Below, piece after piece: positions 6,355 to 63,288 of a stretch of DNA of 64,000 bases. Made by a program: the position numbers and the translations under genes. The notes below the pieces were generated by a model. That model worked only from the letters and a program-made list of their open reading frames with translations. It did not search any database and had not been told where the DNA came from. The DNA lies in assembly GCA_902560225.1 (NCBI GenBank), contig CACEKT010000003.1:1-64000 (forward strand), given 5' to 3'. How positions within the stretch are numbered: position 1 is the first letter of the stretch; every line of letters starts with the position of its first letter. This stretch comes from an uncultured Pelagibacteraceae bacterium. Its GTDB lineage: Bacteria > Pseudomonadota > Alphaproteobacteria > Pelagibacterales > Pelagibacteraceae.

Positions 6355-7581
6355 ATGTTAAAAAACTTAATTAAAAATTTAAATCCTTCTTCTACCTTAA
6401 TGATCAACGAAACCTCAAAGCAAATGGAGGATCAAGGAAAGAAAATATTTAAATTTGGTTTTGGACAATCACCTTTTACAGTGCCGCAAGATATTGTTGA
6501 GGAGCTAAAAAACAACGCATATCAAAACAAATATTTACCCATGCAAGGTCTTTTTCAATTAAGAGAAGCAGTAGCAAAATACACATCTACAAAGAAAAAT
6601 TATGAATACAATTCTGATAATGTAATTATCGGACCCGGCTCTAAGGAATTAATGTTTTTGTTACAAATTATTTTTGATGGTGAAATTATACTACCAGCAC
6701 CTAGTTGGGTTTCTTATGCGCCACAAGCAATTTTGGGTAGAAATAAAATCCAAATACTTCAAACAAAAAGAGAGAATAACTGGTTCCCTAATGGTCAAGA
6801 AATTGAAGAAATAATTTTAAAAGACAAAAAGAAAAATTACCTTTTATTTCTAAATTCACCAAATAATCCTTCTGGACAAGTATGTAAAAAGTTAGACGAA
6901 ATTTCAAATATTGCTAAAAAATACAACCTTATCATTTTATCAGATGAGATATATTCTGAATTAGCATTTAGAGAAAATTTTAAATCTATCTCAAATTTTT
7001 GTCCAGAAAAAACAATTATAAGCACAGGCATTAGCAAATGGTGTGGTGCTGGTGGATGGAGATTAGGTTATTTTATAATACCTAATGAATTAAGTGAGAT
7101 AAAAAAGATGATTAATGTATTAGCAAGCGAAACATTTTCAGCAGTAAGTGCTCCTATTCAATATGCAGCTATAAAAGCTTATGAAAATGACCATACAAAA
7201 TATATTAAAAAGTCTAAAAATATTTTAAGTTCGGTTGGTAAATATGTTTACTTAAATTTAAAGTCCAATAAAGTTTTGATTAGTGAACCACAAGGAGGTT
7301 TTTATATGATGCCAGAATTTTTAAATAATAAGTTTAAAACTTCATCTGAAATGTGTGATAGTATATTAAAGGATACTGGAGTAGCATTGTTACCAGGATC
7401 TGATTTTGGTTTTAACTTAAATAAAATGTTAGCTAGATTAAGCTTTACAGATTTTAATGGTCAAGAATTTATGGAAGGAATTGATGACGATAAATTAATT
7501 GATGAAATTACTATAAATAAATTTGCACCAAAAATAGTAGAAGGTGTAGAAAAGTTAAAAAAGTGGTCAGAATCACTGTAA
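6355..7581 (+). CDS. Class I/II pyridoxal phosphate-dependent aminotransferase
   Basis: SPNNPSG, SDEIYSEL and SKWCGAGGWRLGY (PLP-lysine region) motifs. Confidence 0.9.
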   Translation: MLKNLIKNLNPSSTLMINETSKQMEDQGKKIFKFGFGQSPFTVPQDIVEELKNNAYQNKYLPMQGLFQLREAVAKYTSTKKNYEYNSDNVIIGPGSKELMFLLQIIFDGEIILPAPSWVSYAPQAILGRNKIQILQTKRENNWFPNGQEIEEIILKDKKKNYLLFLNSPNNPSGQVCKKLDEISNIAKKYNLIILSDEIYSELAFRENFKSISNFCPEKTIISTGISKWCGAGGWRLGYFIIPNELSEIKKMINVLASETFSAVSAPIQYAAIKAYENDHTKYIKKSKNILSSVGKYVYLNLKSNKVLISEPQGGFYMMPEFLNNKFKTSSEMCDSILKDTGVALLPGSDFGFNLNKMLARLSFTDFNGQEFMEGIDDDKLIDEITINKFAPKIVEGVEKLKKWSESL

Positions 7582-7651
7582 AATCTGGCTATACATGTCT
7601 AATAAATTTCTGTTAAGATTAATTAATAAAAATAACGATATAGGGGGAAAA

Positions 7652-8656
7652 ATGAAAAAAATAATAACATCTCTATCAAGTGCTCTATTGATACTGGCAG
7701 CATCATTATCTTTTACAAGTGTTGCAAAATCAGCAGAGTTTTTTACGATAGGAACTGGCGGACCTACTGGAGTATATTTCCAAACAGGTAACGCAATTTG
7801 TAAAATGTTGCATAAATCTGCGATTGCCAAAGAACATGGAAGAAAAAAGGGTATTGATAAGGCTTACAGATGTACAGCACCTTCAACTGGTGGATCAAAT
7901 TATAATATTGGTCAAATAGCTGCTGGTGAATTTCAATTTGGTGTTGCTCAGTCTGATTGGCAATATCATGCTGTAAATGGATCTAGTAAGTGGGAAGGAA
8001 AACAGTTTAAAGGTTTAAGAGCTGTATTTTCTGTTCACAATGAACCTTTTCAAATTTGGGCAAGAAAAAAAGCTAAGATAAAAGATTTTGCTGGTTTAAA
8101 AGGAAAAGTTGTTAATATCGGTAACCCTGGTTCAGGTCAAAGAGGTACAATGGAAGAGCTTATGAAAGCAAAAGGAGTTGATAATAGTTTCTTCAAATCA
8201 ACTACTGAACTAACTTCTTCTGAGCAAGTAAAAGCTTTGTGCGATGGTAAAATTGATGCTTTTGGTTATTCTGTAGGATTTCCAAATGGTGCTATGGAAC
8301 AAGCGGCAACTTGTGCAGCTAAAGCTTCACCTATTAATTTAACTGGATCTGAAGTTCAAGGTTTAATTGATGGTGCGGATTATTATGCAAAAGCTGTAAT
8401 TCCTAAAGGTACTTATACAGGGCAAAAGAAAGACGCTACTACTTTTGGTGTCAAAGCTACTGTCGTTACAAGTAATGCAGTTGAAGCTGATCTTGTTTAT
8501 TTAGTTGTTAAAGCAGTATTTGAAAATTTTGACGATTTCAGAAAACAACATCCTGCTTTCTCTTCACTTAAAAAAGAAGATATGATTGCTGATGGTTTAT
8601 CAGCTCCACTTCATGAAGGTGCTAAGAGATATTATAAAGAAGTTGGATTAATGTAA
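7652..8656 (+). CDS. TAXI family TRAP transporter solute-binding protein
   Basis: Signal peptide, then 'EFFTIGTGGPTGVYFQTGNAICKML'; 7652 ATG preferred because of the upstream AGGGGG (track ORF begins at 7595). Confidence 0.92.
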   Translation: MKKIITSLSSALLILAASLSFTSVAKSAEFFTIGTGGPTGVYFQTGNAICKMLHKSAIAKEHGRKKGIDKAYRCTAPSTGGSNYNIGQIAAGEFQFGVAQSDWQYHAVNGSSKWEGKQFKGLRAVFSVHNEPFQIWARKKAKIKDFAGLKGKVVNIGNPGSGQRGTMEELMKAKGVDNSFFKSTTELTSSEQVKALCDGKIDAFGYSVGFPNGAMEQAATCAAKASPINLTGSEVQGLIDGADYYAKAVIPKGTYTGQKKDATTFGVKATVVTSNAVEADLVYLVVKAVFENFDDFRKQHPAFSSLKKEDMIADGLSAPLHEGAKRYYKEVGLM

Positions 8657-8676
8657 TTTGACAATTTAACTTAATT

Positions 8677-8709
8677 AAAAGGCCTGATTTTTATCGGGCC
8701 TTTTTTTTA
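8677..8709 (+). terminator. Rho-independent terminator
   Basis: AAAAGGCCTGATTTTTATCGGGCCTTTTTTTT: stem GGCCTGAT/ATCGGGCC plus T tract. Confidence 0.88.
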
Positions 8710-8729
8710 TAATAGGGTATCTTTTTATA

Positions 8730-11051
8730 ATGAATCAAATCATTAATGAAAAAATAAAAAATAAAATTAATGAAGACCTATCACCAACAAAAAATCTCAC
8801 TGGTTTACATTTTAAAATTGTAGCAGCAATTGCAATTATTTGGTCATTATTTCAACTTTGGTATGCATCACCATTCCCTTTTATGTTCAATATTGGAATG
8901 TTTAAAGGCCTTCCAGCTAGAGCTATTCACCTTGGATTTGCATTAACTTTAGCTTTTTTAATTTATCCAATTTCCAAAGGAAAAAAAATTTCTATTTTTG
9001 ATATTTTAATTAGTTTACTAGCAGCTTTTTCATGTCTTTATATTTACTTTTTTTATGATCAACTTGTTGATCGTGGGGGTGTACTTTTAGATATTAAGAT
9101 TGGGGAAAGTTATAACCTACCAATAGAACTAATTATTGGAAGCTGTGGAATTATAATTTTACTTGAGGCAACAAGAAGAGCAATTGGTTTACCTTTAGTT
9201 ATTATTGCAACTTGTTTTTTATTATTTTCTTATTATGGAAGATATGCCCCAGAAATAATTTCACATGGTGGTCTCTCATTAAATAGGCTCGTCGGTTTTC
9301 AATGGTTAGATCAAGAAGCTATTTTTGGGATTCCTATAGGGGTATCGGTAGATTTTATTTTTTTATTTGTTTTATTTGGTGCTCTTTTAGAGACCGCAGG
9401 TGGCGGAAAATATTTTTTAGATTTAGCATTTGCAATGGTGGGTAAAATGAGAGGTGGTCCGGCTAAGGCTGCAATTTTAGGCTCTGGTATGACTGGATTA
9501 ATTTCAGGATCATCTATTGCAAATACAGTAACGACTGGAACTTTTACAATTCCTATAATGAAAAAAACTGGTTTTTCAAAAGAAAAAGCTGGCGCAATAG
9601 AAGTTTCATCATCTGTAAATGGTCAGATCATGCCACCAGTAATGGGTGCTGCTGCATTCGTTATGGCAAGTTTTATTGGTGTTACATATTTTGAAGTTGT
9701 TAAACATGCATTTTTACCAGCGGTAATTTCTTATATTGCATTATTTTACATCTCACATCTAGAAGCATTAAAATTAAATCTAAAAGGAATGGAAGGTGAG
9801 GATGTTCCTAATTTAAAAAAAACATTTTTATCAGGACTTCATTTCTTAATACCAATTTTTGTTTTAATATATATGTTGGTTTACTTAAGATTTACTGCTT
9901 CCTACTCTATTTTTTATGCAACAATTTCATTAATTTTTGTAAATTTAATAAATCTCTTGATTAAACAAGTTAATTTTAAAAATGCACTTATAGTATGGTT
10001 TAATCAAACTATAATTGGTTTTGAAAAAGGTGCTCTGAATATGGTTGGAGTTGGAATTGCAATAGCAACCGCAGGTATTATTGTTGGGGCTGTTGGTTCT
10101 ACAGGGTTAAGTACTAATTTAATTATAGTAATAGAATCTATAGCAAAAGATAATGTAACTATATTATTATTTTTAACGATAATTTTATGTTTACTTTTAG
10201 GGATGGGCCTTCCAACAACTGCAAATTATGTTGTAGTTGCTTCATTAATGGCAACTGTTTTAGTCGATGTTGGTAATGCATCTGGTTTTATATTTCCACT
10301 TATTGCAGTTCATTTGTTCGTTTTTTATTTTGGTTTAATGGCTGATGTTACTCCACCAGTTGGATTAGCTTCATATGCAGCGGCAGCTATTTCTGGAGGA
10401 GACCCACTTAAAACTGGATTACAAGCTTTTTGGTACAGTTTAAGAACTGGAATTCTTCCAATTGTATTCTTATTTAATCACGAATTATTATTAATAGGCA
10501 TTGAAAATATTTGGCATGGATTTGTTGTAATTATAACTTCATTAGCAGGTATACTTGTATTCACATCGGCAACTCAAGGGTGGTTTATTAATAAACTAAG
10601 ATGGTACGAAATAATAGTATTTTTGATAATTTCTATATCTTTATTATCTCCTGAGTTTGTTCTTAACAAATTTTATCCAAAATATAATTATAAAGATATT
10701 AATAAAATTAATCTTGTCGAATTAGATCCTAGTAAAGAAGTACGTTTCAAAGTTACGCGGCCTAGTCCATATGGAGAAAGATATAAATTATTTGTAATTA
10801 ATAAAAATACTTTTGAATTTGATTATGGTATGGAAGAATATGGAATGAAGTTAGTAAAACAAGATGATAAAATAGTTGTTGATACTTTAAAATGGAATGG
10901 AAAAGCTAAGAAAAGTGGATTTGAACTGGGTGACCACATAAGTGAATTTAAAATAGAAAATTCAAATAGACCAAATAAAATAATTATTTATCCAATAGCA
11001 TTTTTGTTATTAATAATATTTGGTTATCTTAACTATAAAAGAAAAACTTAA
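8730..11051 (+). CDS. TRAP transporter fused 4TM/12TM permease with C-terminal DUF3394-like domain
   Basis: Multi-TM; 'GSGMTGLISGSSIANTVTTGTFTIPIMKKTGF', 'GMGLPTTANYVVVA', 'DVTPPVGLASYAAAAISGGDPLKTG'. Confidence 0.92.
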   Translation: MNQIINEKIKNKINEDLSPTKNLTGLHFKIVAAIAIIWSLFQLWYASPFPFMFNIGMFKGLPARAIHLGFALTLAFLIYPISKGKKISIFDILISLLAAFSCLYIYFFYDQLVDRGGVLLDIKIGESYNLPIELIIGSCGIIILLEATRRAIGLPLVIIATCFLLFSYYGRYAPEIISHGGLSLNRLVGFQWLDQEAIFGIPIGVSVDFIFLFVLFGALLETAGGGKYFLDLAFAMVGKMRGGPAKAAILGSGMTGLISGSSIANTVTTGTFTIPIMKKTGFSKEKAGAIEVSSSVNGQIMPPVMGAAAFVMASFIGVTYFEVVKHAFLPAVISYIALFYISHLEALKLNLKGMEGEDVPNLKKTFLSGLHFLIPIFVLIYMLVYLRFTASYSIFYATISLIFVNLINLLIKQVNFKNALIVWFNQTIIGFEKGALNMVGVGIAIATAGIIVGAVGSTGLSTNLIIVIESIAKDNVTILLFLTIILCLLLGMGLPTTANYVVVASLMATVLVDVGNASGFIFPLIAVHLFVFYFGLMADVTPPVGLASYAAAAISGGDPLKTGLQAFWYSLRTGILPIVFLFNHELLLIGIENIWHGFVVIITSLAGILVFTSATQGWFINKLRWYEIIVFLIISISLLSPEFVLNKFYPKYNYKDINKINLVELDPSKEVRFKVTRPSPYGERYKLFVINKNTFEFDYGMEEYGMKLVKQDDKIVVDTLKWNGKAKKSGFELGDHISEFKIENSNRPNKIIIYPIAFLLLIIFGYLNYKRKT

Positions 11052-61536: not shown

Positions 61537-62259
61537 ATGGAAAAAACTAAAAAAATTAAAATATATATAGGGATATCTTATTTAATATTAGTTTGTCTAT
61601 TTCTATATTTTTTTCTTTCAAAGTTTAGCTTTCAAGAGATTACATCTTATGATTTTATCAAATCAAATAGATCGTATTTTTTTGAACTTAAAAATTCTAA
61701 TTTAATTTTTATATCAATAATTTTTTTATTTTTATCAATACTTTGGGTTTTCCCTTTTTTAGGATTTGGATCTCCTGTAGCAATAATTGGTGGATTTATT
61801 TTTGGAAAATGGATAGGAACTTTAATTGTTACTTTTGGACTAAGTATTGGTGCTACTTTTTTGTATTTATTTGGTAATTATTTTTTAAAAGATTTAGTTA
61901 AAGAAAAATTTTTAAATAAATACAAAAATCTTGAGATCAAATTTAAAAAATCAGAGTTTATTTATTTATTAATATATCGTTTTATAGGAGGACTACCTTG
62001 GCAATTGAGTTGCCTTTTACCAACTATTTTTAATGTAAAGGTAAATAATTTTTTCTTTGCTACATTAATAGGCATAGTTCCTCAAATCTTTTTAGTTGTT
62101 TCTATTGGTAGTGGTTTAGAAAAAATAATTGATCAAAATTCAGAATTTCCATTAATAACTGATATAATTTTTTCTCAAGATATATACATCCCGATTTTAG
62201 CTTTTTTTGGTTTAATATTGACTACAATTATTTTAAGAAAATTTTTTTATAAAAATTAA
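61537..62259 (+). CDS. TVP38/TMEM64 (VTT/DedA-like) membrane protein
   Basis: 'FLGFGSPVAIIGGFIFGKWIGTLIVTFGLSIGATFLYLFGNYF', 'YRFIGGLPWQLSCLLPTIF'. Confidence 0.85.
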   Translation: MEKTKKIKIYIGISYLILVCLFLYFFLSKFSFQEITSYDFIKSNRSYFFELKNSNLIFISIIFLFLSILWVFPFLGFGSPVAIIGGFIFGKWIGTLIVTFGLSIGATFLYLFGNYFLKDLVKEKFLNKYKNLEIKFKKSEFIYLLIYRFIGGLPWQLSCLLPTIFNVKVNNFFFATLIGIVPQIFLVVSIGSGLEKIIDQNSEFPLITDIIFSQDIYIPILAFFGLILTTIILRKFFYKN

Positions 62260-62262
62260 TTT

Positions 62263-62336
62263 TGGTGCTCCCACCCTGTACTGACCAGGGAATTAGTCAT
62301 TACCAATGACTTGATATACCATTTATCTATAGGAGC
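62263..62336 (-). tRNA. tRNA-Thr (GGU), atypical T-loop
   Basis: Minus strand: GCUCCUA UA GAUA AAUGGUA UAUC A AGUCA UUGGUAA UGACU AAUU CCCUG GUCAGUA CAGGG UGGGAGC A CCA; all four stems pair, anticodon GGU, CCA encoded; T-loop GUCAGUA replaces TTCRANY. Confidence 0.82.
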
Positions 62337-62636: not shown

Positions 62637-62734
62637 ACTCAAAAGATAAAAATGAGCGTTTGAGCTTAGCTCTTAAGAAAAATTTAAAGAAAAGAAAACT
62701 TTTTCAAAAGAAAGCAAAAAAGAAAACTAAATAA
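62633..62734 (+). CDS. Very small basic protein (33 aa), unannotated
   Basis: ATG 62633 (overlaps previous TGA as ATGA) to TAA 62734 (TAATG overlap with dcd): [33 protein letters not shown]. Confidence 0.65.
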
Positions 62735-63288
62735 TGTCAGTTCTTTCAGATAAATGGATAAGAAAAATGTCTAAAGAACATGAGATGATTTCCCCTTTTG
62801 AAGAAAAACAAGTTAGAGGTGACAGCATATCATATGGTCTATCTTCATTCGGATATGATGCTAGAGTATCTAATGAATTTAAAATATTTACTAATGTAAA
62901 TTCAGAAATAGTTGATCCAAAAAATTTTAAACCTACAAACTTTGTAACAAAAAATCTAGATGAGTGTATTATTCCACCGAACTCATTTGTGTTGGCTAGA
63001 ACTGTTGAAAAATTTAAAATTCCAAGCGATGTTCTGGTTATTTGTCTTGGAAAATCTACATATGCTAGATGCGGAATTATTGTTAATGTCACTCCTTTGG
63101 AGCCAGGGTGGGAAGGTTATGTAACATTAGAATTTTCTAATACAACACCATTACCTGCAAAAATTTATGCTAATGAGGGTGTTGCTCAATTTATTTTCTT
63201 AAAGGGAAATGAAAAACCAGAAGTTACTTATGCTGATAGAAATGGAAAGTATATGGGTCAAACTGGGGTAACGTTACCCAAAGTTTAG
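62734..63288 (+). CDS. dcd: dCTP deaminase
   Basis: '[17 protein letters not shown]', '[47 protein letters not shown]'. Confidence 0.95.

Follow-up and report, generated by a model that had tools for sequence, protein, structure and literature searches.

A probable threonine elongator tRNA with a recoded elbow in SAR11 bacteria, and apparent co-varying elbow codes in SAR11 chromosomes and phages

Results and Discussion

The tRNA-Thr(GGU) gene and its T-loop

The window, i.e., the whole 64,000-nt stretch of DNA that was analysed, comes from a SAR11 (Pelagibacterales) genome of 0.92 Mb in 47 contigs that is 67% complete (G000). It holds a tRNA-Thr(GGU) gene between genes for a VTT-domain membrane protein and a dCTP deaminase (Table 1). 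Read element by element on the minus strand, the tRNA consists of GCTCCTA, TA, GATA, AATGGTA, TATC, A, AGTCA, TTGGTAA, TGACT, AATT, CCCTG, GTCAGTA, CAGGG, TGGGAGC and ACCA. All 21 of its 21 stem pairs form, one of them as G-U, and the predicted cloverleaf is both the MFE and the centroid fold (-24.4 kcal/mol, z = -2.73), a value equalled by 0 of 200 shuffles. An earlier note on this DNA had described a complete tRNA-Thr(GGU) here and was borne out: its coordinates are exact, all stems are paired, CCA is encoded, the variable loop has 4 nt and the T-loop reads GUCAGUA.

Table 1. Features of the tRNA-Thr(GGU) locus in the window
Feature	Position	Strand	Evidence
tRNA-Thr(GGU) gene, 74 nt, CCA encoded	62263..62336	-	ARAGORN; 48.3 bits vs RF00005; orthologues in many SAR11 genomes
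T-loop GUCAGUA, positions 54-60: G54/G58 replace U54/A58, U55 and C56 retained, A60 replaces Y60	62279..62285	-	Sequence; invariant in 33 distinct SAR11 tRNAs; also in viral tRNAs
D-loop AAUGGUA (A14 A15 U16 G18 G19 U20 A21), short form with G18 G19	62317..62323	-	Sequence; ARAGORN bracket structure
Anticodon GGU, reading ACC and ACU	62302..62304	-	
4-nt variable loop AAUU; Levitt pair U48-A15 possible	62291..62294	-	
T-arm CCCUG-GUCAGUA-CAGGG, the portion most common to phage and other-family tRNAs	62274..62290	-	
VTT-domain membrane protein gene, conserved neighbour	61537..62259	+	Pfam PF09335; synteny
dCTP deaminase (dcd) gene, conserved neighbour on opposite side	62734..63288	+	Pfam PF22769; synteny

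Threonine identity in tRNAs is set by G1-C72, C2-G71, G35 U36 and the discriminator. As expected of an elongator tRNA-Thr(GGU), the window tRNA has the first three of these and a conserved discriminator on a complete cloverleaf with CCA. Its T-loop, numbered G54, U55, C56, A57, G58, U59 and A60, departs from the canonical UUCRANY in lacking both the U54-A58 pair and a pyrimidine at 60, and follows it in placing U55 and C56 opposite G18 and G19 of a 7-nt D-loop. With purines at 54, 58 and 60 (G54, G58 and A60), it falls into the purine-purine 54-58 class. In eukaryotes, initiator tRNA-Met and tRNA-Ala(AGC) carry A54-A58 (PMC7566577; PMC7912444), which in tRNA-Ala is accompanied by a purine at 60 (PMC7566577), and unusual pairs including A54-A58 have been stated to be unobserved in bacterial or archaeal tRNAs (PMC7566577). 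The window tRNA resembles these two eukaryotic tRNAs in its purine-purine 54-58, its purine 60 and its otherwise retained elbow; unlike them, it has G-G, and it is probably a bacterial threonine elongator. The R15-A48 partner change is a feature of tRNA-Ala, whereas the window tRNA has a normal A15-U48.

Copy number and conservation in SAR11

We refer to the family and genus of the window as f1 and g1, and to another SAR11 family as f2. From the window's genome 19 tRNAs were parsed, of which one is Thr(GGU) and one a canonical Thr(UGU). In G181, a relative assembled as a single contig and 99% complete, 30 tRNAs were parsed; tRNA-Ala and tRNA-Ile were absent from these, and the sole Thr(GGU) is identical to that of the window. 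The earlier note had reasoned that a second tRNA-Thr(GGU) together with stem-breaking changes in close relatives would mark a pseudogene. No further copy was found in these two genomes or in other near-complete relatives, and a full-length pattern usually gave one match per genome among 197 genomes of the order. Dozens of SAR11 genomes have the GUCAGUA T-loop. Among the matches listed in the pattern search of genome contigs, all were from SAR11 save two chance matches, in Meiothermus and Agarivorans, that are not tRNAs. Since the identical 74-mer recurs in several independent genomes, chance is excluded as the source of the T-loop, as is sequencing error, which had earlier been named as an event that would undo the observation. 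A GUCAGUA tRNA was absent from 398 other Pseudomonadota genomes save for one match (G507), which looks like chance, its stems having been judged by eye.

Across 33 distinct 74-nt GUCAGUA versions, the T-loop, A14-A15-U16-G18-G19, A21, the anticodon core, U48, G1-C72, C2-G71 and A73 are unchanged and position 20 of the D-loop varies. Most stem pairs vary with compensation, and one non-pair occurs in one sequence. The stem-breaking changes taken earlier as a sign of a pseudogene are thus not what relatives have; their stems are compensated and their loop is invariant. The dcd and VTT genes flank nearly all f1 cases with sufficient flank, irrespective of T-loop type. In the f1 genomes compared, tRNA-Phe is located a few kb from tRNA-Thr(GGU) and is in most cases accompanied by tRNA-His.

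Other elbow sequences in SAR11 tRNAs

The tRNA-Thr(GGU) locus also holds versions with a canonical T-loop, as well as three further forms: AUCAUUA, with A54-U58; UGCAAGU with A18, in which A18-G55 replaces G18-U55; and UUAGAUU with U19, in which U19-A56 replaces G19-C56. In f2, tRNA-Thr(GGU) has AGCGUAA with A18 in some cases and, in others, GUCAGUA on a different tRNA body. The A18-G55 exchange is found in other host tRNAs, i.e., in tRNA-Phe(GAA) of both the window's genome (L010) and G181 (L258), with T-loop UGCGAAU and D-loop AGGAGUA, and in tRNA-Val(GAC) of G181, with T-loop AGCGUAA and D-loop AAUAGUA; tRNA-His has the T-loop UGCAACU with A18. On a tree of the two neighbouring proteins, the five loop states require 12 or more changes, with at least 5 forced for GUCAGUA; recombination of the neighbours could inflate these numbers. 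GUCAGUA itself sits on clearly different tRNA bodies, in two families.

Elbow covariation in viral tRNAs

GUCAGUA was also found in tRNAs on viral contigs, where it occurs in tRNAs for Thr, Gly, Glu, Ile, Asp and Gln with seven anticodon types; the loop is therefore no peculiarity of tRNA-Thr. Like the window tRNA, these phage-encoded tRNAs of several isotypes have a 7-nt D-loop and mostly a 4-nt variable loop, and one of the viral tRNAs (L206) is a single base different from the window's tRNA-Thr. Unlike them, the window gene is chromosomal, lies at a conserved host locus and is the only GGU gene found. AGCGUAA occurs in many more viral-contig tRNAs. Rhizobium phage tRNA-Thr matches were set aside, having the anticodon UGU and a canonical loop, as was a match in Bacillus phage FADO, which has a canonical loop and is simply unannotated.

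Applied to the viral contigs that had been fetched, a finder that specified stems, U8, U33 and CCA and no T-loop letters recovered 923 distinct tRNAs. Positions 54-58 were U-A in 704, A-U in 122, G-G in 58, A-A in 22, C-A in 15 and other combinations in 2, the counts of the two searched motifs being biased because the contigs were fetched for holding them. U55 occurred with G18 in 678 cases and G55 with A18 in 170, and 19-56 likewise covaries strongly. A60 is present in 56 of the 58 viral G54-G58 tRNAs. As a control for bias, the two searched motifs were left out and the remainder was dereplicated below 75% identity, which partly controls for relatedness. In this set of 205 tRNAs, 204 fit at 54-58, 195 at 18-55 and 198 at 19-56, compared with 177, 146 and 187, respectively, in the best of 2000 shuffles. 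An A54-U58 pair is also carried by a cultured phage, Stenotrophomonas phage DLP_6, in a tRNA-Ile with AUCGUUC.

These patterns point to a limited repertoire of co-varying elbow codes common to SAR11 chromosomes and phages, GUCAGUA among them. The loop of the window tRNA, seen earlier in a single sequence, would accordingly be one of few such codes rather than a one-off oddity. Since GUCAGUA is invariant at 54 and 58 within its group, support for a G54-G58 pair comes from other codes (AUCAUUA, GGCAGCA and AGCGUAA). The geometry of this putative pair would be trans Watson-Crick/Hoogsteen if it follows the eukaryotic initiator type, and could include a contact with position 60, because 54-60 covaries almost as strongly as 54-58 in the viral-contig tRNAs. 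No paper describing elbow codes was found in the literature searched; prior art may lie in the selection experiments of Zagryadskaya et al. in 2003 (cited in PMC7912444), in which T-loop variants were reportedly selected.

Two further observations concern viral sequences. On the viral contig L207 (IMG/VR 3300028800_000219), 19 tRNA genes are packed into 2.5 kb at 6708-9195, and one of them is a GUCAGUA tRNA-Thr(GGU). In Bacillus phage FADO (OM236516.1; L557:598-1061), ARAGORN predicts four unannotated tRNAs (Asn, Gly, Glu and Pro).

Mobile elements at tRNA-Thr(GGU) elsewhere in the order

In an f2 genome, a 9.2-kb element (G054:C1:109087-118333; L267, L560) splits the host tRNA-Thr(GGU) at the anticodon. 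The two halves lie 9.2 kb apart with an 8-bp common core, ATTGGTAA, and the host gene is not rebuilt. The element encodes a tyrosine integrase (PF00589, E = 4.4e-15) and its own complete GUCAGUA tRNA-Thr(GGU), the 3' end of which adjoins the beginning of the integrase gene; two cargo proteins that were scanned gave no Pfam match. This arrangement resembles the tRNA-dependent lysogeny described for actinobacteriophages (Guerrero-Bustamante and Hatfull 2024, PMC10865867) in its tyrosine integrase, short core, unrebuilt host tRNA and carriage of a tRNA of the same isotype. It differs in belonging to SAR11 f2 instead of actinobacteriophages and in being known from sequence alone, and it is not at the window's locus. 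In another genome (G040:C2 ~179942-188485; L279:3943-12486), the first 38 bases of tRNA-Thr(GGU) are repeated ~8.5 kb apart. A DrmD-like Snf2 helicase is encoded between the repeats along with a type IIG-like restriction-methylase, and the intervening reading frames of at least 90 aa included no recognised integrase. Element-borne tRNA-Thr(GGU) seems to replace the host copy in the order, with no sign of this at the locus of the window, where no integrase or att remnant was seen.

It is conceivable, although we lean against it, that the window gene was itself acquired from phages or integrative elements that insert in tRNA-Thr(GGU) and bring a replacement tRNA, its elbow code having arrived with it as a phage trait and then become fixed in SAR11. 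Such an origin would fit the occurrence of GUCAGUA in viral tRNAs of seven anticodon types, the near-identity of the L206 tRNA, and the integrase element of G054, which splits the host gene and carries a complete GUCAGUA tRNA-Thr(GGU). It would also fit the clearly different bodies on which the loop is found in two families, with at least 5 changes on the neighbour tree, and its absence from the 398 other Pseudomonadota genomes save for the one chance-like match. However, the window gene occupies the family's usual place, free of any integrase or att remnant seen, and the gene may instead have gone from host to phage; elbow codes may have spread between phages and hosts in either direction. 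Moreover, relatives with a canonical loop have the same short D-arm, which suggests evolution in place.

T-loop modification enzymes

In the sample of 197 genomes, TruB was found in the SAR11 genera g5, g6 and g7 and in most of f2, and had no match in any genome of g1, g8 or g9; the control genomes all matched. Neither the TrmA family nor TrmFO was detected in any of the 8 genomes tested, weak TrmFO matches looking like MnmG. Since TruB, TrmA and TrmFO were undetected, g1 probably lacks the TΨC modification. Loss of TruB is rejected as the sole cause of the unusual loops, since GUCAGUA or AGCGUAA occurs in tRNA-Thr(GGU) of f2, where TruB is kept, and g9 has a canonical loop in this gene despite lacking TruB. 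A missing TΨC modification may nevertheless loosen the constraint on the T-loop, without explaining f2.

A rival reading, which we consider unlikely, is that loss of the m5U54 and pseudouridine-55 enzymes, together with wobble reading by tRNA-Thr(UGU), left the T-loop to drift in a near-neutral fashion. The tRNA-Thr(GGU) could be dispensable because tRNA-Thr(UGU) might read all four threonine codons, and ACC is rare, accounting for 56 of the 832 threonine codons in the long reading frames of the window; ACU, however, is common (357 of 832). Similarly, the missing enzymes (TruB in g1, g8 and g9; TrmA/TrmFO) and the presence of several loops at one locus would agree with relaxed constraint, but f2 retains TruB, drift would break pairs whose partners are seen to change jointly, and GUCAGUA is invariant across many species with compensated stems.

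Function of the recoded elbow

Taken together, we consider it very likely that the window tRNA is a working threonine elongator with a recoded elbow. It would serve as the cell's elongator for the threonine codons ACC and ACU, charged by ThrRS and used by the ribosome. In the rebuilt elbow, a purine-purine G54-G58 with A60 would take the place of the U54-A58 that closes the T-loop, and the usual D-loop contacts, G18-U55 and G19-C56, would still hold the L-shape. A module may be formed by G54, G58 and A60 along with a D-loop of 7 nt and, in most cases, a variable loop of 4 nt. The apparent absence of the enzymes for m5U54 and pseudouridine 55 in g1 probably weakens the constraint on the T-loop there. 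The earlier option of a lineage-specific functional elongator is supported by the single GGU gene, the compensated stems and the invariant loop.

A more speculative view, to which we give little weight, holds that elbow codes are a conflict trait. Matched recoding would let the tRNAs of phages or elements work on the ribosome yet escape elbow-reading factors, which could be modification enzymes of the host or of rivals, nucleases, or integrases that target the T-arm; SAR11 would then have adopted one such tRNA for its sole tRNA-Thr(GGU), a step made easier by the loss of T-psi-C modification.

Staphylococcal peptidoglycan tRNA-Gly has a non-consensus loop, as does the window tRNA, and it exists as extra copies alongside a translating tRNA-Gly; the window gene, by comparison, is the only GGU gene found and its decoding and charging features are invariant. 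It is very improbable that the gene is a pseudogene or, as in staphylococcal peptidoglycan synthesis, a non-translational tRNA: its loop is off consensus and its tRNA-family score is low (48.3 bits, second lowest of 19), but it is intact in the genomes seen, has no second GGU gene beside it and keeps its threonine identity positions invariant. Of the options raised earlier, a decaying copy is rejected by the lack of a second GGU gene and by compensated stems with an invariant loop, and no evidence was found for a non-translational role, the anticodon loop core, G1-C72, C2-G71 and A73 being invariant in 33 sequences.

As a threonine elongator, the tRNA-Thr(GGU) would combine an ordinary role with an unusual version of a nearly universal tertiary pair, as one member of a broader group of elbow codes. 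Few pieces of RNA are conserved as strongly as the T-loop, and very abundant ocean bacteria appear to depend on a tRNA that breaks its rules. Since natural sequences offer compensatory partners, the pairing rules of the elbow are directly readable and testable. In addition, because g1 appears to have lost the enzymes for pseudouridine 55 and m5U54, SAR11 is a natural test of the purpose of these modifications.

Detection by annotation tools

The earlier note had warned that detectors could overlook the gene. This proved correct for the Rfam fast scan of the window, which missed it, but not for ARAGORN, which detected it, or for the full RF00005 score, which at 48.3 bits exceeds the cut-off of 29 and is the second lowest among the 19 above-cut-off tRNA matches in the window's genome. 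ARAGORN misses tRNA-Thr(GGU) in three other cases (L261, L266 and L267), comprising an AGCGUAA loop and two divergent GUCAGUA bodies, and genomes with such a tRNA-Thr may therefore be annotated as being without it. Since annotation tools overlook some of these tRNAs, the numbers of tRNAs in SAR11 and in phages are likely underestimated.
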